A DNA stretch of 64,000 bases from Roseibium sp. HPY-6. GTDB taxonomy: Bacteria; Pseudomonadota; Alphaproteobacteria; Rhizobiales; Stappiaceae. Below are positions 49,922 to 64,000 of the stretch, in pieces; the first letter of the stretch is position 1; the number at the start of each line of letters is the position of its first letter. The translations under genes were made by a program, and so were the position numbers. The DNA lies in contig NZ_JBEWCD010000005.1 in NCBI RefSeq assembly GCF_040530035.1, positions 1 to 64,000 of the forward strand, written 5' to 3'. Under the pieces are notes generated by a model that was given only the letters and a program-made list of their open reading frames with translations, had not been told where the DNA came from and did no database searches.

Positions 49922-50830
49922 TTCGATTTCAATGACCTTGAAGCTTTCCTGGCGGTCATGGAAACGGTCTCGTTTCACCATGCCGCCGAGCGATTGAACC
50001 TGTCGCAATCGGCCGTAACCCGCAGGATCCAGAAGCTGGAGGAAACACTAGGCTCGGTTCTGTTCGATCGAACGACACGTGCGGTCAAACCGACGCTTGC
50101 AGCAAAACGTTTGCAGGCACGGGCCGAGGCGATGCTGGAAAGTGCTCGGGAAACAACACTCGCTATGCGGGACGAAAGTGTTGCTTTTGCCCACCAGCGC
50201 GGGGCCGTCGTGACCGTCGCAATGATCCCGACACTTGTGCATCCACTCCTCATTCCCGCTCTTCAGATGTTGCACGACAAAGGGCTTCCCGTGAGATTGC
50301 GGTTACTTGATCAAGCTGCCAATGAGGTCGCGGAAGCCGTGTCGCGCGAAGACGCGGACTTTGGTGTCTGCTCCATTGGCCTGCTGGAACCGAACACGCA
50401 TTTCGAACCGCTATTCGATGACCTGATCGTGCTTTGTTTGCCGCAAGGCCATCACCTTGCCACCAAATCAAAAGTGACATGGGCTGATATTCAGTCGGAG
50501 AGCCTGATCCTTCCGGCGAGAGGCACAGGAAACCGTTTGCTGATCGACGAAGCGATGGCTCGAAGCCGCTTCACCCCTCAATGGGCATTTGAAGTCGGAC
50601 GCTCCACCACTGCCATGGAGCTCGTGAATGAGGGCCTTGGCGTTGCCCTGCTGCCTCGAACGTCGATGCTTTCTTCGCAGGGGCGAGGTCTTGTTTACAA
50701 GGCGCTCGGAGCCCCGGTGGTGGCGCGGCCGGTCGGGCTGCTGACGCGCATTTCAGCTCCAGACACCTCGCTCGCCCAGGCCTTCAAGTCGGCATTGCGT
50801 GAAACATCGGCCGCGCTCAGGGCGTCTTGA
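49910..50830 (+). CDS. tcuR: LysR-family regulator of tcuAB (TcuR-like)
   Basis: A 306-aa LysR-type regulator. The N-terminal helix-turn-helix covers about residues 6-65 (HHAAERLNLSQSAVTRRIQKLEETLGSVLFDRTTRAVKPT), and a substrate-binding-like effector domain follows (GAVVTVAMIPTLVHPLLIPALQMLH). It is divergent from tcuA, as tcuR is from tcuABC in enterobacteria, so tricarballylate-dependent control is likely. Confidence 0.85.
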   Translation: MRINFDFNDLEAFLAVMETVSFHHAAERLNLSQSAVTRRIQKLEETLGSVLFDRTTRAVKPTLAAKRLQARAEAMLESARETTLAMRDESVAFAHQRGAVVTVAMIPTLVHPLLIPALQMLHDKGLPVRLRLLDQAANEVAEAVSREDADFGVCSIGLLEPNTHFEPLFDDLIVLCLPQGHHLATKSKVTWADIQSESLILPARGTGNRLLIDEAMARSRFTPQWAFEVGRSTTAMELVNEGLGVALLPRTSMLSSQGRGLVYKALGAPVVARPVGLLTRISAPDTSLAQAFKSALRETSAALRAS

Positions 50831-51210
50831 CCCTCAATCTCGCCGTCGGAGCGGGGCGTTGTGGGGCGCAGACCTCCGCAACCGCAATTTGTCCGGTTGG
50901 TATTCTGCGTGTCTTGGAGCCTGGCTTTTTTTCGATCAGAATATAAATTTCAGGCGGCAAGTGTTCGATTTTTCTGACAGAAATAGTTTGTATCAATCTC
51001 TGCAACTCTCGATGCAAGTAAAGCGCGTGATTGCGCTTACATCATCGAAGTTTCCTTGCTGATGTTGACGTAAAGTAATACTTCAACTTACTATCTAATT
51101 CAGAGACTTTTCACTTGTAATATATTGCTAATCGCCACATTCGGCGAGCGGTATGCCTTTGCATTCGTGAAGGTGTGCGCGTTTTATTGGAAAAGAAGCG
51201 GTGCTCCTCC
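50831..51210. other. 380-bp gap before the contractile injection operon
   Basis: No gene is seen here. It is AT-richer than its surroundings, especially 50935-51130, and separates the LysR gene from the injection-system operon. It contains the candidate promoter described at 51065. Confidence 0.6.
51065..51094 (+). promoter_or_regulatory. Candidate promoter of the contractile injection operon
   Basis: TTGACG (51065-51070) and TACTAT (51089-51094), 18 bp apart, look like a sigma-70 promoter about 115 bp before the first gene of the cluster. It is the best match on the plus strand of the gap; no clear operator or terminator was found. Confidence 0.4.
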
Positions 51211-51765
51211 ATGATCAATGAAGCACTCGAATTTGTCCGCCGCGAAGTCCGTGATCATCTCAGTGTGAGCGACACGGAAGCCCAGCTTGAAAGCGCGAGA
51301 GTTCTTGCTGAGGAAGGCTCCGAAGGGCTGACCATCACCCTGATCAATGTCGAGGAAGAATCCGCGCTTCGCAACACACCGAACATGTTCATCGTCGATG
51401 GTCAGCCGGTCCAACGGCAGCCTTCGGTTTTCATGAACCTTTATCTGCTGTTTGCCTTCGATTTTCAGAACTACGGAACCAGCCTTTTCAATCTTTCCCA
51501 GACGATTGCGCTCTTCCAGGACCGGCGGATCTTCACGCCGGCGGACAGCCGTGCCGACAATCCGTTTCCACAAAGAGCCGTGCAGCTTGCCTTCGATCAT
51601 CACAACATGAGCTTCGAGGCTCTCAACAACCTGTGGTCCATCATGGGCGGAACGATTTTTCCCTGCGTGATCTACAAGGTCAGGCTGGTTGAAATCCGCC
51701 GCGAGGTCGAAGACGAGGTTCTACAGGAAATCGACACCATCGAACTGAATATGAGCGGCACATGA
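51211..51765 (+). CDS. DUF4255 protein (Pvc16-like, contractile injection system)
   Basis: A 184-aa protein of the DUF4255 (Pvc16_N) family, characteristic of extracellular contractile injection systems. It starts MINEALEFVRREVRDHL, the typical DUF4255 beginning, and keeps the SVFMNLYLLFAFDFQNYGTSLFNLSQTIALFQ core near residues 74-105. In Photorhabdus and Serratia particles the homologue is a cap protein that closes the tail end. The ATG at 51211 fits the family start; a GTG at 51175 would add 12 residues. Here it opens the operon, whereas in PVC/Afp loci it is near the end. Confidence 0.87.
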   Translation: MINEALEFVRREVRDHLSVSDTEAQLESARVLAEEGSEGLTITLINVEEESALRNTPNMFIVDGQPVQRQPSVFMNLYLLFAFDFQNYGTSLFNLSQTIALFQDRRIFTPADSRADNPFPQRAVQLAFDHHNMSFEALNNLWSIMGGTIFPCVIYKVRLVEIRREVEDEVLQEIDTIELNMSGT

Positions 51766-52508
51766 GCTTCATTCGCCAATATCGCCGCTTTCTGCGGGTC
51801 AGGTTCGAAGACGATGGTGGGGATGCGGTCGATGCCTTCGATGTGCGTCCGAGCACTCACACACGACGGGTTATGGCTGATCATTCATTGATCTTCAGAA
51901 CCGGCACTGCGGGTTTTTCGATTTACAGCCGCAACAATCCGGATGCAGCGGACCCGCTCATCGGGCCGATCAGCGATCGGACGCGCCTGAGCTTCGGACT
52001 GCGGATCACAGACCCGCAGTTTTACGATCGGTACCATCCGGACCTGACACCTGCGCGCCGCCAGATTTTGTTGGAGAACCTCGGTGCGACCGGTGCCATT
52101 CAAGCCTCCGGAGCGCTGAGTGCAATTGCGACTGTCGAGCAGAGCGAACTGGTCCAATCAGGCCCCGCGAGCGATTTCCCGGTCGCGATAGATCTGACGG
52201 CAGGTTCGCCCGATCGTCTGCACGCCCGGAACCGTTTCGACAACACGCTTTTGGCCGAGCAAAGGTTCACGGCGCCACCCGGCACCGTATTCAGACTGGG
52301 CGCGGATCTCAGTTCTCTTCAGCACCCCGCCGCGCGTCTGACGACGCCTGTCGCGGGCGCCTTGGACCAGATCGTTTACGCCGACGATGAAATCAGCAAC
52401 AGCGGTGCGGAAATGATCCTCGACCTTTGGTGGGACCAGCGGCAGGACGCCGTACCGTCACCGAATGGAGCCCTCTTTACCGCCTCCTTTCGAGCCAGGA
52501 CCTCGTGA
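51762..52508 (+). CDS. Unrecognised protein of the injection operon
   Basis: A 248-aa soluble protein with no signal peptide or membrane span and a mixed, beta-rich character. It starts MSFIRQYRRFLRVRFEDDGG and contains RLSFGLRITDPQFYDRYHPDLTPARR near residues 73-98. I do not recognise a family. It is tied to the injection system by the 4-bp overlap with the DUF4255 gene and by lying just before the sheath. Candidates are a second cap or chaperone-like protein, or a capsid-tail joining protein, but this is inference. Confidence 0.7.
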   Translation: MSFIRQYRRFLRVRFEDDGGDAVDAFDVRPSTHTRRVMADHSLIFRTGTAGFSIYSRNNPDAADPLIGPISDRTRLSFGLRITDPQFYDRYHPDLTPARRQILLENLGATGAIQASGALSAIATVEQSELVQSGPASDFPVAIDLTAGSPDRLHARNRFDNTLLAEQRFTAPPGTVFRLGADLSSLQHPAARLTTPVAGALDQIVYADDEISNSGAEMILDLWWDQRQDAVPSPNGALFTASFRARTS

Positions 52509-52686
52509 TGATCTTTATCGGACAGAAAAACCAGCGCGCTATAGCGAAGGTGTTCGCAACAACGGGTGGATTGCCGAAAGGCGAGCGTCGCCAACCTTTG
52601 CTGAGGTCTCGCCACTGCTTTCTGGAGCCCCGGACAAAGCCTTCCAATCCAAACCCGTTTCAATTCCGGATCTGAGCCAAGACTAA
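52465..52686 (+). CDS. Possible small protein before the sheath gene
   Basis: A 73-aa reading frame starting MEPSLPPPFEPGPRDDLYRTEKPARYSEG and ending 22 bp before the sheath gene. Its codons look like neighbours in composition. It overlaps the preceding gene by 44 bp, more than is usual. A competing frame (to 52675) looks less natural. Proline-rich N-terminus, no known motif. Function unknown. Confidence 0.45.
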   Translation: MEPSLPPPFEPGPRDDLYRTEKPARYSEGVRNNGWIAERRASPTFAEVSPLLSGAPDKAFQSKPVSIPDLSQD

Positions 52687-52707
52687 GCCCCCGAGAGGAA
52701 ACCCGCC

Positions 52708-54249
52708 ATGACCAATTTAATGCTTTCAACGCCCGGCGTGGCCATACAGGAACTGCCTTTCAACACGCCGACGATCGCGGGCGTCGCAACGGCGATACCT
52801 GCCTTCATTGGTCCTGTTCGCAACACTAATGCGCCTGACGGGACCACCCTGATCGGAAACACCTGGCGCATCAGCTCGTTGCAGGAATTTGAAGCGTTGT
52901 TTGGGATACCGGCGGCGAGCGGCTTTACCATACGCGCAGACAAACGCATCGATCAGAACGGTGCGTTGCTTGGCGTTGATACAAGTTTTCAGGCGGCGCC
53001 GGAACGCGTGCCGACGGGACAGCGCCTCTTTTACCACGCGTTGCAGCTTTACTTCGACAACGGGGGTGGGCCCTGCCACATCCGGCCGATTGATGCCGCG
53101 GCCAATGCGCAATCCAACTATGATGATGCGATTACGGCGCTGGAGAGCACCGACGAAATCACGCTGAACGTCATCGTCAACACGATCGGCGCAAATGCCG
53201 CGAACTACGGTTCATTGGCAACGGCCTCAATGCAGTCCTGCAATCGCACGCAGGACCGTTTCACGATTGCCGATGTGATTGACTCCTACCCCGGGGGCAC
53301 TGTCGACAATTCGGGGATTCCCTCAACGCTTGGTCAGGATGTGACAGCAGAATTCAGAGACCGGGTTACGGCGGTTTCAGAAGATGTTCTCAAATATGGC
53401 GCGGCATATATTCCTTACCTCAACACCAACATGCCGGTGCTTTACGCGGCCGGAACCGTTGATATCGACGCAGCGTCGCAGTTGATCACTTTCGACGCGC
53501 AGGGCAATCAGACCAATACGACAGATCTGTTCACGAATGGTGGCTCGGACCTGCCACTGTCAGACAACTTCTTTCAAGGTGTCGTTGACCTTGTGACGCC
53601 TGCCAATTCGCAACCAGGCGAAAAGCCGGTCGTCGAAGCGGTTCTGAACCTTTTGAACAGCACAACGCTGATCATGCCGCCGTCACCGGCAATGGCCGGG
53701 ATTTACGCCCGGGTCGACCGGCAGCGCGGTGTTCATGTCGCACCGGCCAATGTCGGCGTGATGAACACTGTGGGGCCCGCGCTCGCGATCACGGACGAAG
53801 AACAGGGTCTTTTGAACGTCGACCCGACATCAGGCAAATCCGTAAATGCGATCCGCTTCTTCACCGGGCGCGGCACGGTGGTCTGGGGTGCACGAACACT
53901 TGCCGGCAACAGCGGCGACTGGAAATTCGTCAACCGGCGCAGAGCTGCCCTTTACCTGGAAGAGAGCATTGGCGATGCGCTCGAAGCCTTCGTGTTCGAA
54001 CCCAACGTGTCCAAAACCTGGGTCCGTGTGAAGCGCATGATCGAAGGGTTCCTGCTCAACGAGTGGCGCGCGGGAACGCTTGCGGGCCCGACGGCGGCAG
54101 ATGCATTTGAGGTTTCCATCGGACTTGGAACCACGATGAGCCAACAGGACATTGTCGACGGCATCATGCGGATCCTTGTGCGTGTGGCGCTTCCCGGCCC
54201 GGCCGAAAAGATCATCCTGCAATTCACGCAAAAGGCCCAGGTGGCCTGA
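52708..54249 (+). CDS. Tail sheath protein of the contractile injection system
   Basis: A 513-aa phage-tail-sheath-type protein that forms the contractile outer tube. It starts LMLSTPGVAIQELPFNTPTIAGVATAIPAFIGPV, the typical N-terminus, and ends with the conserved sheath core: FVFEPNVSKTWVRVKRMIEGFLLNEWRAGTLAG near residues 430-462, plus PGPAEKIILQFTQKAQ at the end. GAGAGG precedes the ATG. It is the only sheath gene seen; PVC and Afp loci carry three. Confidence 0.93.
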   Translation: MTNLMLSTPGVAIQELPFNTPTIAGVATAIPAFIGPVRNTNAPDGTTLIGNTWRISSLQEFEALFGIPAASGFTIRADKRIDQNGALLGVDTSFQAAPERVPTGQRLFYHALQLYFDNGGGPCHIRPIDAAANAQSNYDDAITALESTDEITLNVIVNTIGANAANYGSLATASMQSCNRTQDRFTIADVIDSYPGGTVDNSGIPSTLGQDVTAEFRDRVTAVSEDVLKYGAAYIPYLNTNMPVLYAAGTVDIDAASQLITFDAQGNQTNTTDLFTNGGSDLPLSDNFFQGVVDLVTPANSQPGEKPVVEAVLNLLNSTTLIMPPSPAMAGIYARVDRQRGVHVAPANVGVMNTVGPALAITDEEQGLLNVDPTSGKSVNAIRFFTGRGTVVWGARTLAGNSGDWKFVNRRRAALYLEESIGDALEAFVFEPNVSKTWVRVKRMIEGFLLNEWRAGTLAGPTAADAFEVSIGLGTTMSQQDIVDGIMRILVRVALPGPAEKIILQFTQKAQVA

Positions 54250-54276
54250 GCCGCCGCATCCGAAAGGATCTGAAAA

Positions 54277-54708
54277 ATGGTCAATTATCCGATCGCAAAA
54301 TACAATTTCGAGGTCGAGATGGAGGGGTTCACCCGGATCGGCTTCACGGAAGTCTCCGGGCTGGACATCGAGACGGAAGTTATCGAGTACCGCGAAGGCG
54401 CTTACCCGGAACCGTCGAAAATCCAGATCCCGGGCATGAAGAAATACGGCACGGTGACCTGCAAGCGGGGCATGGTGCGCGGTGACAACGAAATCTACGA
54501 CTGGTTCCAGGCGATCCTTGACCCGGCAAACCGGCGGGATGTTCAGATTTCGCTTCTGGATGAAATGCGCGAGCCGGTCTTCGTCTGGGTGATTTCGAAT
54601 GCCTTCGTGACCAAGATCGCTTCCACCGATCTCAAGGCGGACGGCAACGAGATTGCGATCGAATCCATGGAGTTCAAAGGCGACTCCATCGCAATCTCGG
54701 CACCGTAG
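54277..54708 (+). CDS. Tail tube protein 1 (Pvc1/Afp1-like)
   Basis: A 143-aa phage-tail-tube protein of the gp19/Hcp-like family, which stacks into the inner tube. It has the family N-terminus YPIAKYNFEVEMEGFTRIGFTEVSGLDIETEVIEYREG (residues 3-41) and the GMKKYGTVTCKRGMVRG core near residues 52-68. It lies 27 bp after the sheath gene. This is the main tube subunit; the second copy next to it is more diverged. Confidence 0.92.
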   Translation: MVNYPIAKYNFEVEMEGFTRIGFTEVSGLDIETEVIEYREGAYPEPSKIQIPGMKKYGTVTCKRGMVRGDNEIYDWFQAILDPANRRDVQISLLDEMREPVFVWVISNAFVTKIASTDLKADGNEIAIESMEFKGDSIAISAP

Positions 54709-54718
54709 GGCGTTTCCC

Positions 54719-55168
54719 ATGACATTGGCTCACCCCTACAATCTGCCCCTCATCCACAATTTCCGGGTCGAGTTTGATCTGCCCGGTGCGGGAGATCTGG
54801 ATGTCCGCTTCAGGGAGGTCTCCGGGCTTTCCATGGAGCTGGAACAGGAGACGGTGACGGAGGGCGGTGAGAACCGTTTCGTTCACAAGGTTCCGGTTCG
54901 AGCGAGCTATCCAGACCTCGTCCTGAAACGCGGGCTGATTGCGGAAAGCGCGGTGACCCAATGGATCCGGGACGCCGTTCAAAGCCTCGTCATCCGGCCC
55001 ATCACCTTGAGCGTCGTCCTCCTCGATACAGAGCTGGAACCGCTGCGCACATTCTCCGTAGTGAATGCCTGGCCGAAGAAATGGACCGTGTCCGATTTCA
55101 ATGCCGAGACAAGCGATATCGCGGTTGAAACGCTCGAACTTGCCTACGCGCATTTCCGGGAGGTCTGA
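54719..55168 (+). CDS. Tail tube protein 2 (Pvc5/Afp5-like)
   Basis: A 149-aa second tube-family protein with PYNLPLIHNFRVEFDLPGAGDLDVRFREVSGLSMELEQE near residues 6-44 and PVRASYPDLVLKRGLIAESAVTQWI near 58-82. It is related to, but distinct from, the tube protein at 54277 and matches the baseplate-proximal tube ring (Pvc5-type). The ATG at 54719 lies 10 bp after the first tube gene and is preferred over an earlier one at 54653 inside it. Confidence 0.88.
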   Translation: MTLAHPYNLPLIHNFRVEFDLPGAGDLDVRFREVSGLSMELEQETVTEGGENRFVHKVPVRASYPDLVLKRGLIAESAVTQWIRDAVQSLVIRPITLSVVLLDTELEPLRTFSVVNAWPKKWTVSDFNAETSDIAVETLELAYAHFREV

Positions 55169-55169
55169 C

Positions 55170-55340
55170 ATGGCGGTGCAGGTCAATCTCATCGAATTCC
55201 GCGGCCGTATCGAAGGTTCGCCGAAAACGAAGCCGGCAAATGAAATGTCCGACACGGAAAAAGCCGCTGAGCGCGAACATGTAATCTCGGCCGCCGTTGC
55301 CGAGGCCATCGCCGTGATCCGGCGCCGGGAGGAACGCTGA
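55170..55340 (+). CDS. DUF5908 small protein (Pvc6-like)
   Basis: A 56-aa protein starting MAVQVNLIEFRGRIEGSPKTKPANEMSDTEKAAEREHVISAAVAEAIAVIRRREER. It matches the small DUF5908 family found between the tube and Pvc7 genes in contractile injection loci (Pvc6/Afp6). The C-terminal helix is charged. It starts 1 bp after the previous gene and ends 1 bp before the next, which supports a real gene. Its role in particle assembly is not well known. Confidence 0.8.
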   Translation: MAVQVNLIEFRGRIEGSPKTKPANEMSDTEKAAEREHVISAAVAEAIAVIRRREER

Positions 55341-55341
55341 A

Positions 55342-56049
55342 ATGCCCCCGCCGGACGGTACATTGGTGAAGCTGACGATCGTTCCTTACGAATCCTCAAA
55401 GGCGTTCGCGGACAGCCTGCCTGCCGGACCGACCTTTGAAGCCCAGATCAACCCGGCGGAATATACCGACGCTGTCGAACTGGAAATGAATGCCGACGAG
55501 ACGCCTCAGGGTGCCGACGGGAACGAGGCGAAGGTCAAGGGCATCAAACCGAGGACCTATACGTTCGACTTGCCGCTCGAAGGTTCGGGTGCGCTTGACG
55601 TGGATGGCCGTCACGGCGGGGATCCGAGTTCGGCGGAGACCCTGATTGAACGTCTCGATGCGTTTCGGGAGACTGTCGGATTTTCCGGCGAGGTCCACAG
55701 ACAGAGATTTCTGCATCTGGCCTGGGGGCGATTGTCCGTCACCTGCGCGCTGGAAACCTATTCCGTCAATTTCAAGCTGTTCGATTCACAGGGTAATCCG
55801 CTTCGGGCGGTCCTCAGCGCGACTTTCAAGGAGCACAAGGATCCGGAAGTCCAGGAGAAGGAGAAGAACCTCGCAAGCCCGGACATCACCCACGGGCGTC
55901 TTGTTCACGACGGAGACACGCTCGTAAATCTCACCTACGGGGTTTACCGCGATCCGGGACTTTACATCGCTGTGGCTGAAGCGAACGGGCTTGATACCGT
56001 CCGTCAACTTGAGACGGGATCGGACCTGATCCTGCCTCCGGTGAGGTGA
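55342..56049 (+). CDS. LysM-type tube/baseplate protein (Pvc7-like)
   Basis: A 235-aa protein of the gp53/LysM type that links tube and spike (Pvc7/Afp7 role). The N-terminal half carries a tube-family-like fold (FEAQINPAEYTDAVELEM, GIKPRTYTFDLPLEGSG near 70-86) and the C-terminus is a LysM domain (HDGDTLVNLTYGVYRDPGLYIAVAEANGLDTVRQLETGSDLILPP near 188-232). It sits between the DUF5908 and spike genes, as in PVC loci. Confidence 0.9.
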   Translation: MPPPDGTLVKLTIVPYESSKAFADSLPAGPTFEAQINPAEYTDAVELEMNADETPQGADGNEAKVKGIKPRTYTFDLPLEGSGALDVDGRHGGDPSSAETLIERLDAFRETVGFSGEVHRQRFLHLAWGRLSVTCALETYSVNFKLFDSQGNPLRAVLSATFKEHKDPEVQEKEKNLASPDITHGRLVHDGDTLVNLTYGVYRDPGLYIAVAEANGLDTVRQLETGSDLILPPVR

Positions 56050-56052
56050 CCG

Positions 56053-57783
56053 ATGCCGCTTGAGCCGACACAGAGCGCAGCCCTGACCACGGTCACGATC
56101 CGGTCGAACGGAACCGAGATCCCGGGGACCTTCGCGCTTTTGTCGTTGGAAATCTCACAGGTCTGCGGAAGTATTCCCTATGCCCATCTCATTTTCCAGG
56201 ATGGTGACCCGGCTAAACAAAGCTTCGATATCGCCGCGTCCGATACATTCGTACCGGGCGCGGAAGTCGAGATTGACCTCGGCTACAACCGCAACGAAGA
56301 GCTGATTTTCAAGGGCATTGCGACACGCCTGCGCGCCGAGGCTCCCTTGAAGGGATCGTCGCGGCTGCATGTCGAGGTAAAGCATGCCGCTTTCCGCATG
56401 CATCACGCACGACATTCGCGCGTCTGGGTCGATGTGAGCGATGCCGACGCCATCGAGCAGATTGCCGGTGGCTACGGGATCGGGTTCGAGGGAAGCTCGG
56501 AAATGCAACAGCCGCAGCTCGTGCAGCACCAGGCGACCGACTGGGACTTCTGCGTGCTAAGGGGCGAAAGGATCGGGCAGCTTTTGGTCGGCGAAACGGA
56601 CGGATTGCGTCTGTTTACGCCCGATCCCGGCAAAGACCCGGCGGCGACCCTGGAATACGGCCGGACGCTTTTCAGCCTGGATGTCGAGCTCAATGCAGAA
56701 GCGCAGGCAGCCGAGATTTCGGTTGGCGCCTGGAGCGCGGCCGAAGCGGAAATCGAAACGGCCGAAAGCGCCGCGAGCGATGTGCCGGGGCCTGGAAATC
56801 TCGACGGCAATGCGCTCTCCGATGCTTCGGGGCACAAGCCGAAACCAAGGCAGGCAGGGGCTCGCAATCAGGCCGAGCTTGACGATTGGGCGCGTGCTGC
56901 CATGCAACGGCGCCGGCTGTCGGCGGTGACCGGAATGCTGGAGGTTCAAGGATCCACAAGCCTTTCGGTTGGCAACATGGTCGAACTGAAAGGATTGGGG
57001 CCGCGCTTCGACGGCAAGGCGTTTGTCTCCGGCCTACGTCACTCGATCGCCCGCGGAGACTGGCGATGCTTCGTCCAGATCGGACTGGATCCCGCGTTTC
57101 ACGACGAGCGGCACGATGTCTGTGCGCCCCCGGCAGCCGGACTTATTCCTTCGATCTCGGGACTGCAGATCGGCGTCGTCGATGAAGTTCATAACGATCC
57201 TGCAGGGGAAGACCGGGTGTCCGTTCGCCTCGTGAGCGAGACTGAAACATCGGAACCGATCTGGGCACGCCCGATGAGTATCGGCGGCGGCGAAAAGCGT
57301 GGTCTGGTGATGTTGCCTGATCCCGGCAGCGAATGCCTGCTCGGGTTTCTGGACAGTGATCCGCGAGACCCTGTGCTGATCGGCGGTCTGCACAGCTCGG
57401 CCGCGGCCTCACCCCTGCCGGGCGCTGAGGACAACGACCTGAAGGGTCTGGTGTCGCGTGCGGGCACGCGGATTGTTTTTGACGACAGCGGGCCATCGCT
57501 CGTGATCGAAACCGAAGGCAACCGGCTGATATCGCTGTCCGATGACGAGGGAATAATCACCATTTCCGACAAGTCCGGAAACAAGATGGAATTCGACAAT
57601 AACGGGATCACGCTCACCAGCAATGCCGACATAACGCTCGACGCCAAGGGCAACATCACGATCGACGGAACCAACGTCAACGCGGCTGCGAAAGCCGGCA
57701 TGGAAATGAAGGGGACCACGTCGGCCAACTTCAAAAGCTCGGGATCGACCGTCGTGCGCGGCGCAACGGTCGACATCAACTAG
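56053..57783 (+). CDS. VgrG-like spike protein (Pvc8-like)
   Basis: A 576-aa spike protein of the VgrG/gpV family that forms the puncturing tip. Residues 1 to about 340 hold the VgrG-type base (GNMVELKGLGPRFDGKAFVSGLRHSIARGDWRCFVQIGL near 308-346), residues about 375-455 the OB-fold with gp5-type segments (VSVRLVSETETSEPIWARPMSIGGGEKRGLVMLPDPGSECLLGFLDSDPRDPVLIGG), and the C-terminus a beta-helix built of short repeats (KSGNKMEFDNNGITLTSNADITLDAKGNITIDGTNVN). It starts 3 bp after Pvc7. Confidence 0.92.
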   Translation: MPLEPTQSAALTTVTIRSNGTEIPGTFALLSLEISQVCGSIPYAHLIFQDGDPAKQSFDIAASDTFVPGAEVEIDLGYNRNEELIFKGIATRLRAEAPLKGSSRLHVEVKHAAFRMHHARHSRVWVDVSDADAIEQIAGGYGIGFEGSSEMQQPQLVQHQATDWDFCVLRGERIGQLLVGETDGLRLFTPDPGKDPAATLEYGRTLFSLDVELNAEAQAAEISVGAWSAAEAEIETAESAASDVPGPGNLDGNALSDASGHKPKPRQAGARNQAELDDWARAAMQRRRLSAVTGMLEVQGSTSLSVGNMVELKGLGPRFDGKAFVSGLRHSIARGDWRCFVQIGLDPAFHDERHDVCAPPAAGLIPSISGLQIGVVDEVHNDPAGEDRVSVRLVSETETSEPIWARPMSIGGGEKRGLVMLPDPGSECLLGFLDSDPRDPVLIGGLHSSAAASPLPGAEDNDLKGLVSRAGTRIVFDDSGPSLVIETEGNRLISLSDDEGIITISDKSGNKMEFDNNGITLTSNADITLDAKGNITIDGTNVNAAAKAGMEMKGTTSANFKSSGSTVVRGATVDIN

Positions 57784-57811
57784 GACCTATAGAATCGCAA
57801 GGAGGATCGAC

Positions 57812-58111
57812 ATGCCGCCGGCCGCCAGGATCAGTGACTTTCACACCTGTCCGTTGCAGACACCCGCTGTCGTGCCGATCCCGCATGTGGGCGGTCCGAT
57901 TGCCGGACCCGGCGTGCCGCTTGTGCGGATCGGCGGATTGCCGGCAGCCGTGCAGGGCGACATTGCAACATGCGTCGGTCCGCCGGACACGATCCTCAAG
58001 GGGTCGACGACCGTTCGCATCGGCGGACGTCCCGCCGCGCGGCAGGGTGACCCGACGGCCCATGGCGGCACCATTTCCGCCGGGCTGCCAACCGTCCGGA
58101 TCGGAGGTTGA
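57812..58111 (+). CDS. PAAR-domain spike tip (Pvc10-like)
   Basis: A 99-aa PAAR-repeat protein (MPPAARISDFHTCPLQTPAVVPIPHVGGPI start), which caps the spike and sharpens it. The repeating RIGGLPAAVQGDIATC and RIGGRPAARQGDPTAHGG blocks are clear, with His and Cys residues (H11, C13, C53, H85 region) that bind the metal. GGAGG precedes the ATG. It comes before the gp25 gene, the reverse of the PVC order. Confidence 0.92.
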   Translation: MPPAARISDFHTCPLQTPAVVPIPHVGGPIAGPGVPLVRIGGLPAAVQGDIATCVGPPDTILKGSTTVRIGGRPAARQGDPTAHGGTISAGLPTVRIGG

Positions 58112-58114
58112 ATA

Positions 58115-58510
58115 ATGGCCGTTGAGGACCGCTTCATCGGGACGGGCTGGGGCTTTCCGCCGACATTCGAAAACGACGGAGTTCAGTTGACCGGTGGCGC
58201 GAGCAACATTCGGGAAAGCCTTCGGATCATCCTGACCACGACCCTTGGCGAACGCGTCATGCGTCCGGATTTCGGTTGCCGCATCGAGGAAGAGGTTTTC
58301 GGTCCGATGAACGCCACGCGGCTGACGATGATCGAAACGGTGATCCGCCGCGCGATCCTGCTGCACGAACCACGGGTGGATGCCAAGCGCGTGGCCGTAG
58401 AGGCCCGGCAGCCGGAGGGTATCCTGGAGATTTCACTCGACTATGAGATCCGGGGCGCAAAGTCGCGCTTTAGCCTTGTGCTGCCATATGATCTGGAGGC
58501 AGGGGTATGA
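58115..58510 (+). CDS. gp25-like baseplate wedge protein (Pvc9-like)
   Basis: A 131-aa gp25/GPW family protein that anchors the sheath to the baseplate. It has GWGFPPTFENDGVQLTGGASNIRESLRIILTTTLGERVMRPDFGCRIEEEVF near residues 9-60, including the conserved ExR-like E and R. It starts 3 bp after the PAAR gene and its end overlaps the next gene by 4 bp. Confidence 0.92.
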   Translation: MAVEDRFIGTGWGFPPTFENDGVQLTGGASNIRESLRIILTTTLGERVMRPDFGCRIEEEVFGPMNATRLTMIETVIRRAILLHEPRVDAKRVAVEARQPEGILEISLDYEIRGAKSRFSLVLPYDLEAGV

Positions 58511-61500
58511 GCACTTGCGACCGCCGCGGCCCCCTGTCAAGGACCGGCACTGCCCAACCGGATCGCGATATCGCAGAACGCAGGGCGGATCACTTCCAGC
58601 TTGACGAAAGAGACGTGGCGGATCTGATCCAGTTCGGTCGCAGATTTGCCCGGCAAATCCGGTTTTACGCGAAAGACGGCGCTCCCGCCGGTGATTGGTC
58701 GGCGTTTTTCGACAGCGACATTTCCGCGGTACTTGCCTCGATTGCGAAATTGCCGGTCGATCCTTTCCGGCGTGCGCTCGGGGACGCAAAAGGCTTTCTG
58801 GAAGATGATCCGTCCCGGCCGGAAGCACAGCTCAGGGCGCATCTGGCGCTGGTCTTTCATTTGCCGATTGCATTGCTTCAGGAATTGACGCTGCGGCTGT
58901 CGCCACTTGAGGCCGAGAACCCTTTCCGCCGCAGAATGACCCGCCTGCTGGAGACGAGCGTTGCGCCGCGGCTGGCGGAGTTGGCGCGGTATCACCAGGG
59001 CGGGGTGGATGAAGGGGTTATTCTGGCAAGCGCACTGAGCAAGACCAATTTGAACACCTCTGACAATCCCGGTCCGGGACCGCAAATCGCGGACGAAGTG
59101 CGCGACATCATATTCAATGGCGAGGCATTCGAGGTGACGTCTCTGCCGGTTCACGTCGTCGGAGGGTTTGCCGCGACGGGATGGAGCGACTTCTATGACG
59201 CGCAGACGCCGGACCCGTCACCCTATCTCGACGGTTCGGACACCTATGCGCAGATCTATGACGCGCTCAATTACAATCTTCTTGTCTCCAGCATGGAACG
59301 CGTTTTCCAGGCGCTTGCCCGCGCCCGGAAGGAAGCCGAAGCACAGCTCCAGGAGAGCCTGACGGATTTTGCGCGCCACACGCCGCATTACGGGCTCTGG
59401 CTTGCATTTCTTTCCATGTACGACCGGGCCCGGTCGGAACTGAACGCGTTTACCGGCCGGCACATGGATTTCTATTTTGAAGATGTGTTGCGCCTGTCGC
59501 GCAAAGCGCCGACGCCGGATCACGTCCATCTACTCGTCAATCTGGCGCGGGGAACGGAGGCGCATCTATTGCCTGCGGGCACCTTGGTGCGCGCCGGAAA
59601 GGACGCAACCGGGGCGGACGTCGCCTACGCACTCGAAGAAGACTTTGTTGCCAATCGCGCGCTGGTCACCGAGCTGAGGTCCGTACGCGTCAACACGAAG
59701 AAATCCGGCGGCAAGGAGTCCGTCTCGGTGCAGGCTTCGCCGATCACCGCATCCTCGGACGGTATCGGTGACGAGCTGCCTGAGGAAACGCCGCACTTTG
59801 CTCCATTTGGCCCGGAGGCGGCGCCCTTTGCACGGCTTGGATTTGCAGTCGCGGACCGGCAGCTCTTCATGCGTGAGGGAAGCCGCGTTGCGAAGATCAG
59901 CTTCAAGACAGCGTTCGGCGGATCCATCGCGGTGCTGAAGGGCTTCAAGGTCCGACTGACCACAGAAGAGGGCTGGCTGGAGCTCTCTAAGTCGGCTGAG
60001 CTCAAGGCGGAAGTCACCAAGGGCACGGTCGTGTTCACGATGACACTTGCCGGCAATCATCCTCCGATTGTTCCGCACGATCCGGCCGTCCACGAAGGAC
60101 CGTATCCTACCGGTGTTCCTGTTGCCGAAATCCTGCTTGACTGGGATGGCAATGAAGCGGCCGCCTCAAGCGCTATGGCGGTTTTCAGGAATGCCAGCCG
60201 CAACAAGGTCAAGATCCAGACCGAGGCAACAGGTTTGCGGCAGATGAGCGTGCGCACGGACGACGGCACTGCCGACCCGTCCGCTGTCTTCACACCGTTC
60301 GGTGCACAGCCCCGCAAAAACGCACGCTGGATCCTCGGCTCCAGCGAGGTGTTCAGCCGCCCGCTGGACACACTGACGGTCAATGTGACCTGGGCGGAGG
60401 CTTACGTAAAAGGCCAGTTCTTCGAGAACCAGGCCGCAAGCGCTTATCAGGTCGGCTTCGACTACCTCTCCAGCGGTTCGTGGCAGAGCGGCGACACGAA
60501 GACGATATCGCTTCAGCTGGATGGAACGGGAACGAATCCGCTGGCTGCGAAGGGAACCGGCAAAGCGCCGGCAGACGCGGAACTGTTGCTTGAAGACCCT
60601 TCCTTTGACGCAAAGCAGCGCACCGGCTTCATGCGCATGACCTTGAACCGCGACTTTGGCCATGATCGGTATCTCGACGCGAAAACGCTTGCGCTTATTG
60701 ACCTTGCCAGCGGGAATGGGATCAAGCCTGTCACCAACCTTGCCGCCGGTGACACGATTGTCGCGGAATCTCAGATCCTGCCGGGTTTCGATCCGGGTCT
60801 CGATTCCCTTACGCTATCCTCCGGTTTGCCCAACCCTCCCTACACGCCCGAAATCGCGGAAATTTCGATTGACTACGCTGCGAAGCAGAGCACGGCCGAG
60901 GGCGTCTGGCGGGTGCACCCCTTCGGCGTCGAACCTGCGAACGGTTCGGGACGCGTTTTGCCGGACCTGCCCTTTGAAGGGGCGCTTTTCATCGGCGTCG
61001 ACGCACTCGATCCTTCTGAAACCTTTTCGCTCCTTGTCCAGGTCGCTGACGGCACGGGAGATCCGCTCCTGGAGTTGCCTGATCTTGATTTTGCCTGGCT
61101 GAAAAACAGCGGCTGGACAAAGTTCAAGTCGCAGGAAGTCATTGACAGGACCGGAGGCCTCGCCGGTTCCGGGCTTTTGTCCTTCGCCGTGCCGACCGAC
61201 GCGTCGAGCGACGCCCCTCATATGCCACCCGGGCTGCACTGGTTCAGGATTTCCGTGGCTGAAAATGCGGACGCCGTCAATCGACTGCATCTGGTCGCGG
61301 CGCAGGCTGTCCGGGCTAGCTTCGTCGATCGCGGCAATGATCCGGTTTTTCTGGAAAGTGCGTTGCCGGCCGGAACGATCAGCAAACTGTTGCAGCCGGA
61401 TCCCGCCGTCAAAAGCCTTGAACAGCCTTTTGCAAGTTTCGGCGGACGCGGTTTGGAAACGCCGGACGACTTCCGCCGCCGTGTGTCTGAACGCCTGCGC

Positions 61501-62139
61501 CACAAGGACCGGGCGGTGACGATGTGGGACTACGAGCACCTGGCGCTGGAATCCAACCGGAGCGTCTACCGCGCAAAATGCCTGAACCACACCGAGCTGA
61601 AACGCCAGGCCGGCAAGGTGGTTGGAGACAATGAGATGGCACCTGGTGCGGTCACCTTCGTGGCTGTTCCCTATACATTCGGGACGGACCTGCGCGATCC
61701 TCTGCGACCCTATTCCGATCAGGCGACGCTGCACGGATTGCACGAACATCTTGCACGCCGCTGCTCTCCCTTTGTGAGGCTTGAAACCGCCAATCCGAAA
61801 TTTGAAGAGATCCATGTCTCGATGAATGTGGCGTTCCGGGAGGGGATCGCCGACACGGATTTCTATCGCAAGGAAATCGAAACAGCGTTGATCGGTCATC
61901 TGACGCCCTGGACGCAAAGGGGCGCGCGCGGTGTCGAGTTCGGCGGCCGGATCTACAAATCGACCGTGATCGACTTTGTCGAGGAACTGCCCTTTGTCGA
62001 TTACCTTGAAGACGTGAAGCTGTTTCACAGGCGGAACCCGGATGGCCCGGTGCCGCAAACCGATCTGGAAATCATCCAGGCGTCAACGGCCCGCTCCGTA
62101 CTCGTCTCCGCACGATCTCATTCGATTGGACTTGTGTGA
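58507..62139 (+). CDS. Large baseplate protein (Pvc11/gpJ-like)
   Basis: A 1210-aa baseplate component of the Pvc11/Afp11 type. A gp47/baseplate-J-like region is recognisable toward the C-terminus (ETPDDFRRRVSERLRHKDRAVTMWDYEHLALESNRSVYRAKCLNHT near 986-1030 and ETALIGHLTPWTQRGARGVEFGGRIYKSTVIDFVEELPFVDYLEDVKL near 1123-1170). It forms the wedge ring at the base of the sheath. It overlaps the gp25 gene by 4 bp and the next gene by 1 bp. Confidence 0.9.
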   Translation: MSTCDRRGPLSRTGTAQPDRDIAERRADHFQLDERDVADLIQFGRRFARQIRFYAKDGAPAGDWSAFFDSDISAVLASIAKLPVDPFRRALGDAKGFLEDDPSRPEAQLRAHLALVFHLPIALLQELTLRLSPLEAENPFRRRMTRLLETSVAPRLAELARYHQGGVDEGVILASALSKTNLNTSDNPGPGPQIADEVRDIIFNGEAFEVTSLPVHVVGGFAATGWSDFYDAQTPDPSPYLDGSDTYAQIYDALNYNLLVSSMERVFQALARARKEAEAQLQESLTDFARHTPHYGLWLAFLSMYDRARSELNAFTGRHMDFYFEDVLRLSRKAPTPDHVHLLVNLARGTEAHLLPAGTLVRAGKDATGADVAYALEEDFVANRALVTELRSVRVNTKKSGGKESVSVQASPITASSDGIGDELPEETPHFAPFGPEAAPFARLGFAVADRQLFMREGSRVAKISFKTAFGGSIAVLKGFKVRLTTEEGWLELSKSAELKAEVTKGTVVFTMTLAGNHPPIVPHDPAVHEGPYPTGVPVAEILLDWDGNEAAASSAMAVFRNASRNKVKIQTEATGLRQMSVRTDDGTADPSAVFTPFGAQPRKNARWILGSSEVFSRPLDTLTVNVTWAEAYVKGQFFENQAASAYQVGFDYLSSGSWQSGDTKTISLQLDGTGTNPLAAKGTGKAPADAELLLEDPSFDAKQRTGFMRMTLNRDFGHDRYLDAKTLALIDLASGNGIKPVTNLAAGDTIVAESQILPGFDPGLDSLTLSSGLPNPPYTPEIAEISIDYAAKQSTAEGVWRVHPFGVEPANGSGRVLPDLPFEGALFIGVDALDPSETFSLLVQVADGTGDPLLELPDLDFAWLKNSGWTKFKSQEVIDRTGGLAGSGLLSFAVPTDASSDAPHMPPGLHWFRISVAENADAVNRLHLVAAQAVRASFVDRGNDPVFLESALPAGTISKLLQPDPAVKSLEQPFASFGGRGLETPDDFRRRVSERLRHKDRAVTMWDYEHLALESNRSVYRAKCLNHTELKRQAGKVVGDNEMAPGAVTFVAVPYTFGTDLRDPLRPYSDQATLHGLHEHLARRCSPFVRLETANPKFEEIHVSMNVAFREGIADTDFYRKEIETALIGHLTPWTQRGARGVEFGGRIYKSTVIDFVEELPFVDYLEDVKLFHRRNPDGPVPQTDLEIIQASTARSVLVSARSHSIGLV

Positions 62140-64000
62140 TGGCTGACGATCTCTTCATTCTTCCGGGAAACCGGCCTCCAGGCGCGCGGGACTTTGAAGC
62201 CTTGCGGCGGCTTGGCATCGACCGCATCACAGCACTCAGCGGCGAAATCTGGGACAATCACAACACGTCCGACCCCGGCATCGCGATGCTTGAGACGATT
62301 GCCTATGCGATCACGGATCTGGGTTACCGGACCGCGTTTCCCATGGAAGATCTCGTCAGCAGACCGGACGGCATGATTGGTCCGGCCGCCGAGACCGGCC
62401 TCTTCCCGGCCCACGAGATTCTAACGACGTCACCGGTCACGATCAACGATCACCGCCGGCTTCTCATTCGTATTGAAGGCGTGCGGAATGTCTGGCTCGA
62501 CCCGATGACCGATCCGGGCGAGCCGAACAATTTCCGTCTTTCCGAAACACCGATTTTTGCAGACTGCCTGGCCGATGCCCTGTCGCACGATCCGCTCAAC
62601 GCGGAAGGTCATGACAATCACCCGGTCAAGGTGAGTGGACTCTACCGTGTACTGGTCGAGCTGCCGGTGGATGATGTTCTCGGTTCTCTGAACGAGGCGG
62701 CGCTGGAAGTCACTCTGCGCGCCGGTCCGCTGAAAGGCGTCGTGATCGCGATTAACCCCGTCAACGATACTATCCTGGCTTATGAACATGACGCGCTGCC
62801 CGATCCGTTCGAGCCGGATGCCGTCACGGTCAGCAACGTGACGGAGGCGGGCAACGGTATCGAATTTGGAGCGGACCTCAGCGTTGAGCAGAACGGCAGC
62901 GTTATCGCCGCGCTCAACGGCTTGGAGATCACGGTGCTGGAGGACCGGCCGCGCCCGACAGACGATCCTGTCGTCGTAACAGCCGGCGATCTGCAGGACG
63001 TGTTGGGCGAAACCGGACCCGATGGCCCAGCCGGATTGTTCCTCAGGAAACGGGAAGCCCGCCGGCGCGCTCTGACCGCTGTCCGCCGCGTGCTTCATGC
63101 CCATCGTCCGCTTTGCGAAGATTACCTGTCGATCGACAGCGTCGCACCCCACCGGGTGGGTCTTTGCGCGGATGTTGATGTGACACCGGACGCGGATCTG
63201 GAAGAGGTCGAGGCCAGGATCATTCACGCCATTGAGCTTTATCTGAACCCGCCACCGCTATTCCGGACACTTGATGCGCTTCTGGCAGATGATGTTCCGG
63301 CAGACGAGATATTCAACGGTCCCTACATAGACTTCGGCTTCGAAGTCGAAGGCCGTCCCATCTTTACCAAACCGGGTTTCATTTCCGACGAGGATCTTGC
63401 GGCCTGCGAACTCAGGCGGAAGGTCCATGTATCCGACCTGATCAATATCATCGTCGATCTTGAGGGCGTCGTTGCCGTCAGGAACCTCTCGCTCCGGGCT
63501 TACGACCTGCAAGGGGTGCCCATTGGCGATACGGAGCACTGGACACTGGAGGTGCCGCCCGGACATCAACCGGTGCTGTTTTTCCCCGGTACGAAGCTGA
63601 CGCTTTACAAGAACGAACTGCCCTATCGCGCGCAGCCGACCGAACTTGAGCGCACTCTGGAACATCTTCGAGCCTTGTCACAGGCCGAGCTCTACGTGCC
63701 ACCGGATCAGGTGCTGCCTCCCGTCATGGGGCGTTGGAGGAAACTGGACCAGGTCCCGACGCTGCAGAATGAACTGCCGCGGAATTTCGCGACAGACCGC
63801 TTCGGCCTGCCACCGGATGCGCCAAAGGAGCGCGTTGCGCAAGCGCGGCAGTTGAAAGGTTATCTGACATTTTTCGATCAGGTGCTCGCCGACTATCTGG
63901 GGCAGCTCGCCTCTGCCCGGCGGATCCTGTCACCGGACAAATCACTCGAGCAGACGTGGTTCCCACCGAGCCTTGAACACTTTCCGGGTCTTCGGGAGGA
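62139..64000 (+). CDS. Pvc12-like baseplate protein, cut by the window end
   Basis: An open reading frame of at least 620 residues that runs off the end of the window without a stop. It starts MADDLFILPGNRPPGARDFEALRRLGIDRI and has GEIWDNHNTSDPGIAMLETIAYAITDLGYRTAFP near residues 35-68. The segment KERVAQARQLKGYLTFFDQVLADYLGQLASARRILS near 563-598 is the well-known Pvc12/Afp12-family helix. The ATG overlaps the previous stop (TGATG). In PVC particles Pvc12 completes the baseplate wedge. Confidence 0.88.
   Translation, partial: MADDLFILPGNRPPGARDFEALRRLGIDRITALSGEIWDNHNTSDPGIAMLETIAYAITDLGYRTAFPMEDLVSRPDGMIGPAAETGLFPAHEILTTSPVTINDHRRLLIRIEGVRNVWLDPMTDPGEPNNFRLSETPIFADCLADALSHDPLNAEGHDNHPVKVSGLYRVLVELPVDDVLGSLNEAALEVTLRAGPLKGVVIAINPVNDTILAYEHDALPDPFEPDAVTVSNVTEAGNGIEFGADLSVEQNGSVIAALNGLEITVLEDRPRPTDDPVVVTAGDLQDVLGETGPDGPAGLFLRKREARRRALTAVRRVLHAHRPLCEDYLSIDSVAPHRVGLCADVDVTPDADLEEVEARIIHAIELYLNPPPLFRTLDALLADDVPADEIFNGPYIDFGFEVEGRPIFTKPGFISDEDLAACELRRKVHVSDLINIIVDLEGVVAVRNLSLRAYDLQGVPIGDTEHWTLEVPPGHQPVLFFPGTKLTLYKNELPYRAQPTELERTLEHLRALSQAELYVPPDQVLPPVMGRWRKLDQVPTLQNELPRNFATDRFGLPPDAPKERVAQARQLKGYLTFFDQVLADYLGQLASARRILSPDKSLEQTWFPPSLEHFPGLRE

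Follow-up and report, generated by a model that had tools for sequence, protein, structure and literature searches.

A contractile injection locus of Roseibium with a membrane-type helix in its tail fibre and a single large candidate effector

Known systems and the Roseibium locus

The closest described relatives of the locus reported here are two contractile injection systems (CISs): AlgoCIS of Algoriphagus machipongonensis, a released extracellular CIS (eCIS) of subtype Ib, and the thylakoid CIS (tCIS) of Anabaena PCC 7120, which, according to the relevant part of PMC8894136, is anchored by its fibre and by baseplate extensions. The branch to which we assign the locus, AlgoCIS/tCIS or eBAP4, is defined, in the part of PMC12923769 that deals with it, by a fibre whose first approximately 200 residues resemble the tCIS crown and by the presence of both an Afp11- and an Afp12-type protein without a Tail_P2_I protein. 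The locus lies on contig NZ_JBEWCD010000005.1 (C5; 128,258 bp) of Roseibium sp. HPY-6, whose genome comprises 7.03 Mb in 8 contigs. It begins in the stretch of DNA analysed, bases 1-64000 (the left half) of this contig (hereafter 'the window'), and was read rightward past 64000 by adding C5:62001-122000.

Sixteen genes on the + strand cover 51211-76386 (25.2 kb), where the run ends. Their order is cap, possible cap adaptor, sheath, tube A, tube B, DUF5908-like protein, Pvc7, spike, PAAR, gp25, Cis11, Cis12, Cis19/Alg19-type fibre, tape measure, DUF4157 effector and AAA ATPase. A preliminary description, confined to the window, had listed a cap, a sheath, two tubes, Pvc7, a spike, PAAR, gp25 and two baseplate proteins among at least eleven collinear genes between 51211 and 64000. 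All of these are present on the + strand, and the window comprises eleven genes in full plus the beginning of the twelfth, Cis12, with four more genes beyond 64000. The tape measure (68469-69773, 434 residues; CIS_TMP, 1.5e-82), fibre (65217-68465, 1082 residues; sequence and fold match) and AAA ATPase (75007-76386, 459 residues; 9.7e-25, with AAA-type matches in PADLOC) that it expected to the right were found there, and the toxin that it also expected has a candidate in the DUF4157 (eCIS_core) effector (69770-75010, 1746 residues).

Judged by its sequence, the locus is a complete CIS of the AlgoCIS/tCIS branch, and so of a known kind. A single cluster contains the cap (DUF4255), sheath, gp19 tubes, CIS_tube, spike, PAAR, gp25 and baseplate J proteins, together with an AAA ATPase, a tape measure, a DUF4157 effector and a tail fibre that is homologous to Cis19/Alg19 in both sequence and fold. 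Positions 3-192 of the fibre profile align with residues 7-189 of All3314, the Afp11- and Afp12-type proteins are both present as Cis11 and Cis12, and Tail_P2_I gave no match in any of the 16 proteins at E limits from 0.001 to 1. In a search against solved structures, which left out the spike, Pvc7, PAAR and gp25, the best match of the sheath, Cis11 and Cis12 was the Anabaena tCIS followed by AlgoCIS, while that of the cap and fibre was AlgoCIS; the solved sheath, Cis11, Cis12, cap and fibre (Alg19) of AlgoCIS are thus all matched here.

It is extremely improbable that a prophage, tailocin or type VI secretion cluster has been misread as an eCIS. Sheath, tube and baseplate are indeed common to phages, but DUF4255, CIS_tube, CIS_TMP, AAA and eCIS_core occur here together. 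The genes 3' of the AAA ATPase are spoVR (on the other strand), DUF444 and prkA, with none of the phage or type VI genes among them that would have spoken against the preliminary description. TssK and IcmF/TssM are absent from the cluster, their only matches in the genome being on contig C2 at approximately 0.19 and 2.82 Mb. Gene content, flanks and the location of the type VI genes on C2 all speak against such a cluster.

The locus differs from its solved relatives in several respects. AlgoCIS has two DUF4157 cargo proteins, whereas the Roseibium locus has one giant effector, and the AlgoCIS fibre has 1443 residues compared with 1082 in Roseibium, where it includes a membrane-type helix. The Anabaena tCIS has a Cis13 anchor. 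We found no separate Cis13 fibre with a transmembrane domain in the Roseibium locus, whose 16 genes are tightly packed with none left over, and the membrane-type helix is carried instead by the Cis19 homologue.

The tail fibre and its membrane-type helix

A structure model of the fibre contains one helix at residues 558-583, whose best 19 residues have a mean hydropathy of 2.86. Among the structural proteins of the locus, only this Cis19 homologue has a 19-residue stretch with a hydropathy of at least 1.6. We aligned it with the fibres of 79 related loci (drawn from the best 80 of 208 relatives), giving a set of 80. Hydropathy at the helix position is 1.99-3.51 in 20 of these, namely that of the window and L008-L026, and at most 1.59 in the other 60. 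A quick tree of Cis12 was built from the 71 of 80 rows with at least 800 residues, although letter make-up is uneven in 30 rows, including that of the window. All 18 helix-bearing rows present in this tree fall together on one side of a branch with a support of 100 in the Shimodaira-Hasegawa-like approximate likelihood ratio test (SH-aLRT). On this tree the trait requires a single change, a value as low being reached in 0 of 500 shuffles, and the branch spans Pseudomonadota, Bacteroidota, Nitrospirota and Thermodesulfobacteriota. Other structural open reading frames (ORFs) of the same loci (tubes, Pvc7, spike, PAAR, gp25, Cis11, Cis12, tape measure and AAA) served as a control: a hydropathy of at least 1.95 anywhere was found in only 5 of 562, compared with 15 of 100 effector ORFs.

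These observations bear on whether the particle is released or held by the cell that makes it. Gene content would not distinguish the two, and the membrane-type helix makes the word 'extracellular', as used in the preliminary description, a real question as far as the sequence goes. We slightly favour release of free particles over a membrane-bound mode, since Alg19, the closest solved fibre by sequence, belongs to a released system. In the alternative, the fibre trimers, with three membrane helices each, would hold the baseplate to the cytoplasmic membrane of the producer, in a manner resembling a type VI secretion system or the tCIS with neither TssJLM nor a Cis13 anchor. The strength of the helix signal, its confinement at this position to one well-supported branch, its rarity in the control ORFs, the lack of any gene for a Cis13-type fibre and the anchored state of the tCIS (PMC8894136, relevant part) all speak for such tethering. 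We nevertheless consider it rather unlikely. The helix segment of the window includes both an Asp and an Arg and extends for at most 10 residues without D, E, K, R, N, Q or H; runs of this kind reach 18-22 in only 12 of the 20 helix-bearing fibres, and the best 19 residues are entirely free of these letters in only four. In addition, values of at least 1.95 turn up at other positions in nine fibres from outside the branch, the C-terminal domain of the fibre has, in the model, the look of a target-binding module, and a model of the monomer is silent on burial within a trimer. Computed insertion free energies of the helix are negative, but we give them little weight.

Hydrophobic stretches elsewhere in fibres that do not belong to the branch lie, for example, near residues 724 (L031), 701 (L034) and 750 (L029). 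These are perhaps separate gains of membrane contact.

The monomer model could also accommodate a helix that forms the buried core of the middle domain of the fibre trimer and has no membrane role, in an otherwise ordinary eCIS. This is possible, if doubtful. The helix precedes a middle part that is mostly helical in the model, it has a hydrophobic moment of 0.85, and helix 230-245 of the same fibre also reaches a hydropathy of 1.97 over its 16 residues. However, L021, L022 and L025 have 22 consecutive residues there that lack D, E, K, R, N, Q and H, with a moment of 0.14-0.55, which is more like a membrane helix.

A further reading, which we regard as unlikely, is that the particle is released and that the helix inserts into the membrane of the target after binding, as part of the firing trigger. 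According to the part of PMC13314943 that deals with binding, attachment of the AlgoCIS fibre to resin does not fire the particle, and its authors suggest an unidentified second receptor, which would be in keeping with such a trigger. The helix also follows the second well-matched block between the fibre and All3314, which ends near residue 526. We place the end of the fibre neck tentatively near this residue, from the alignment. The data on the helix itself, however, serve the tethered arrangement equally well.

The fibre has no NCBIfam name and no match in PADLOC. A membrane helix in a Cis19-type fibre is not described in the relevant parts of PMC8894136, PMC11566945, PMC12237407, PMC13314943 and PMC13277306, and the word 'transmembrane' is absent from the main text of PMC12923769.

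The giant effector and the proposed mode of action

Within the genome, eCIS_core matches the 1746-residue effector alone. The protein is composed of a DUF4157 core, a CHAP-like region, a middle part of approximately 340 residues, a tape-measure-like part and a C-terminal tip. Scoring of 7991 candidates gave 136 relatives, 120 of them listed. BLAST shows that the first approximately 1480 residues are common to the relatives while the remainder is often not. The tip is exchanged between relatives on a constant carrier of this length. The core HExxH is kept in all 83 rows with letters there, and the Cys and His of the CHAP-like region in 78 of 82 and 78 of 79 rows, respectively (89-row alignment). 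Hydrophobic stretches at 1313-1391 reach only 1.65-1.72.

Most tips of the relatives resemble nucleases, that of the window by a weak fold match only. From residue 137 on, the tip model consists of seven helices and three strands, as described for the DNase of TseN, a type VI secretion effector of Acidovorax citrulli. The tip also carries conserved D-H and R-H motifs. The identity to TseN is 11% with a weak Z score, and TseN is delivered by another machine; judging from the model, the tip may cut DNA. A search with the tip retrieved 19 short proteins, none with a functional name, only proteins of about the size of the tip being visible. One relative of the tip, of 207 residues (P0232), comes from a Bathymodiolus methanotrophic gill symbiont. 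The whole effector has no NCBIfam name, no PADLOC match and no PHROG family at E <= 0.01; some of its relatives bear source names such as 'phage-related protein' or 'phage tail protein'.

Across the 79 related loci, the effector ORFs were searched domain by domain. An effector was seen in 16 loci of the helix-bearing branch; in L013, L018 and L025 the locus sequence ends before it. In 13 of the 16, core, CHAP-like, middle and tape-measure-like parts follow in this order on one ORF (with the first two shortened in L016). The exceptions are L011, where the protein is split over two ORFs, L023, with the tape-measure-like part only, and L024, without core and CHAP-like parts. Outside the branch, 47 of 60 loci have an effector ORF, and among these the middle part occurs in none, the tape-measure-like part in 10 and the CHAP-like region in 3. 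In two Chlorobiaceae effectors (L048 and L076) the CHAP-like region precedes the DUF4157 core, an order opposite to that in Roseibium.

This protein resembles Tme of S. davawensis and Sle1 of S. lividans, which are likewise large, have DUF4157 within the effector or next to it and vary in their C-terminal functional domain; both DUF4157 and a variable C-terminal domain are found in the Roseibium effector. A further mark of that class is a helix-rich stretch with membrane segments, related to phage tape measure proteins. As far as descriptions allow the comparison, the Roseibium effector stands apart as a single polypeptide that also includes a CHAP-like region and the middle part of approximately 340 residues. 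The combination of a membrane-type fibre helix with an all-in-one effector appears not to be described in the relevant parts of the literature examined; the locus itself may be listed in the supplementary tables of eCIS catalogues. Nor, judging by listings, does any publication on contractile injection in Roseibium or Labrenzia describe this locus.

Taken as a whole, the locus is probably best explained as a complete injection system of the AlgoCIS/tCIS branch that delivers one effector. The tail would be assembled in the cytoplasm of the producer and the single 1746-residue effector loaded into the tube with the help of the AAA ATPase and of its own DUF4157 region. Trimers of the Cis19/Alg19-type fibre at the baseplate would then bind the target, and contraction would push the PAAR-capped spike and the tube through the envelope. 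Finally, the tape-measure-like part of the effector would enter the target membrane and pass the C-terminal tip, a possible DNase, into the cell. The roles suggested for AAA and DUF4157 in loading, for the tape-measure-like part in membrane entry and for the CHAP-like region are extrapolated from the parts of PMC11126660, PMC13277306 and PMC11297309 that deal with them.

The target could also be the producer itself. The start of the AAA gene lies inside the 3' end of the effector gene, and spoVR follows on the other strand, so that no immunity gene is evident beside the effector, the search being limited to these neighbours. The lack of an evident immunity gene suggests either a target other than close kin or a self-directed role. 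A device for self-attack or for death under stress, of the kind seen in Streptomyces or Anabaena and acting in the producer or its kin, would be in keeping with tape-measure-related effectors of Streptomyces that act in the producer (PMC11126660 and PMC13277306, in part). We consider this quite improbable: the fibre has a C-terminal domain of binding type, and the missing immunity gene would fit a eukaryotic target equally well.

More far-reaching, and unlikely in our estimation, is the proposal that the branch constitutes a new deployment class, in which a Cis19-type fibre would fix the machine to the membrane of its own cell without a type VI complex or Cis13 anchor, and the machine would fire an all-in-one, nuclease-tipped effector with its own envelope hydrolase and membrane-crossing section.

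Structural genes, surroundings and distribution

The first gene, 51211-51765, encodes the cap or tail terminator (Pvc16_N, DUF4255; Alg16A/All3327 type; 184 residues; Pfam, 3.6e-26; 7adz_0A, 2.7e-18). The adjoining gene at 51762-52508, which the preliminary description had not named, specifies a 248-residue protein with no Pfam, PHROG or NCBIfam match; it is a possible cap adaptor, with a likeness to All3326 of the Anabaena system (7b5i_AB) that is weak and not significant alone (E 0.071). A second cap protein of that kind counts among the traits of the AlgoCIS/tCIS branch. The contractile sheath (52708-54249, 513 residues) matches 7b5h_AO (2.5e-85), 7adz_2A (5.7e-84) and the PHROG tail sheath (1.3e-39), its Pfam match (3.5e-06, 27.4 bits) being under the cut-off of 31.4. 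Two gp19 inner tube proteins follow, A (54277-54708, 143 residues; Pfam, 3.4e-38) and B (54719-55168, 149 residues, start corrected to 54719; 1.1e-37). The small protein in the Pvc6 position (55170-55340, 56 residues) had been called DUF5908. Its position and a Pfam likeness agree with this, but the match (E 0.035; 15.4 bits) is below the cut-off of 27.7 and thus weaker than claimed.

Next come the Pvc7-type tube initiator (CIS_tube; 55342-56049, 235 residues; Pfam, 2.6e-32), the VgrG-like spike (56053-57783, 576 residues; Phage_base_V, 1.6e-14; Phage_GPD, 5.4e-09), the PAAR tip (57812-58111, 99 residues; Pfam, 6.4e-22) and the gp25 baseplate wedge, Cis9 (58115-58510, 131 residues; Pfam, 8e-24). 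The J-like baseplate protein Cis11 (58507-62139, 1210 residues) matches All3317 (7b5h_AH, 5.4e-134), 7aeb_G (2e-120) and, in Pfam, Baseplate_J (1.2e-06). Cis12 (62136-65204, of which the window holds the part to 64000; 1022 residues) matches All3315 (7b5h_AD, 8.3e-124) and Alg12 (2.4e-110), with only a sub-threshold baseplate match in NCBIfam.

If overlaps are counted twice, the 16 genes occupy 98.9% of their interval; the gaps range from -4 to 28 bp, with a sole exception of 199 bp. The GC content is 59.5%, compared with 58.1% on both sides. A sigma-70-like promoter sequence (TTGACG-18-TACTAT; 51065-51094, + strand), a consensus match only, lies 146 bp before the first gene; 50830-51300 contains three promoter-like sites on both strands compared with a mean of 0.4 in shuffles, and nearly the same stretch is present in three other genomes of the genus (G039, G005 and G021). 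In the leader between this site and the first gene, a stem-loop followed by a T-rich stretch (51151-51188) could be an attenuator. The count of terminator-like sites there (1, with 0.7 expected) is not beyond chance; the CCTTTG...AAGG stem recurs by eye in the same three genomes. The window contains no RNA element at Rfam gathering scores and no tRNA beside the insertion. Elsewhere in this genome (G000), contig C2 carries two type VI secretion loci with TssK and IcmF matches, at approximately 184-190 kb and 2.817-2.824 Mb.

The nearest relatives of the fibre that carry a name come from an uncultured Roseibium (97%) and, at 88% each, from Roseibium sp. MMSF_3544, R. album and Labrenzia sp. DG1229, which fits the marine alphaproteobacterium that had been surmised from the sequence. 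A sheath match was obtained in 12 of 45 genomes from the genus, with at least 78% identity in five, including the genome itself. The search for the fibre covered these 12 genomes and found it in the same five. Among 289 genomes drawn from the class, it was found only in the own genome (E <= 1e-10). Sheaths of 35-39% identity in G002, G008, G019 and G027 (L092-L095), which have no match to the fibre described here, perhaps stem from another CIS, or from a phage tail, within the genus.

Both neighbours of the locus, a LysR gene and spoVR, are above thresholds in 10 of the 45 genomes. The locus lies between them in G000, G039, G005 and G021 and is absent from five: G042 (a single 6.35-Mb contig) and G037, where the two genes are convergent with matched frames 23 bp apart, and G006, G032 and G034, where they are on different contigs. 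In G036 they share an orientation at a distance of 27 kb, and the CIS locus is on another contig, between what we take to be genes for short-chain dehydrogenase/epimerase types and for a 716-residue NosR-like protein. From these comparisons, the locus looks to have been acquired or lost as a single block, and at more than one site. BLAST of the window junctions against the two empty sites gave the expected flank matches only, without junction repeats, and no transposase or integrase was seen in the ORF lists, although no scan was aimed at them.

An eCIS is in itself expected biology; the surprise lies in the fibre helix and in the mode of deployment. What decides whether a CIS is released, anchored in a membrane or used for self-killing is an open question in the field. 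Here, one branch extending over four phyla couples a membrane-type fibre helix with one large modular effector. Its carriers include Roseibium, with sister species free of the locus, so that the mode of action is testable in a marine bacterium, and the exchangeable tip on a constant carrier shows how such a machine changes its payload.

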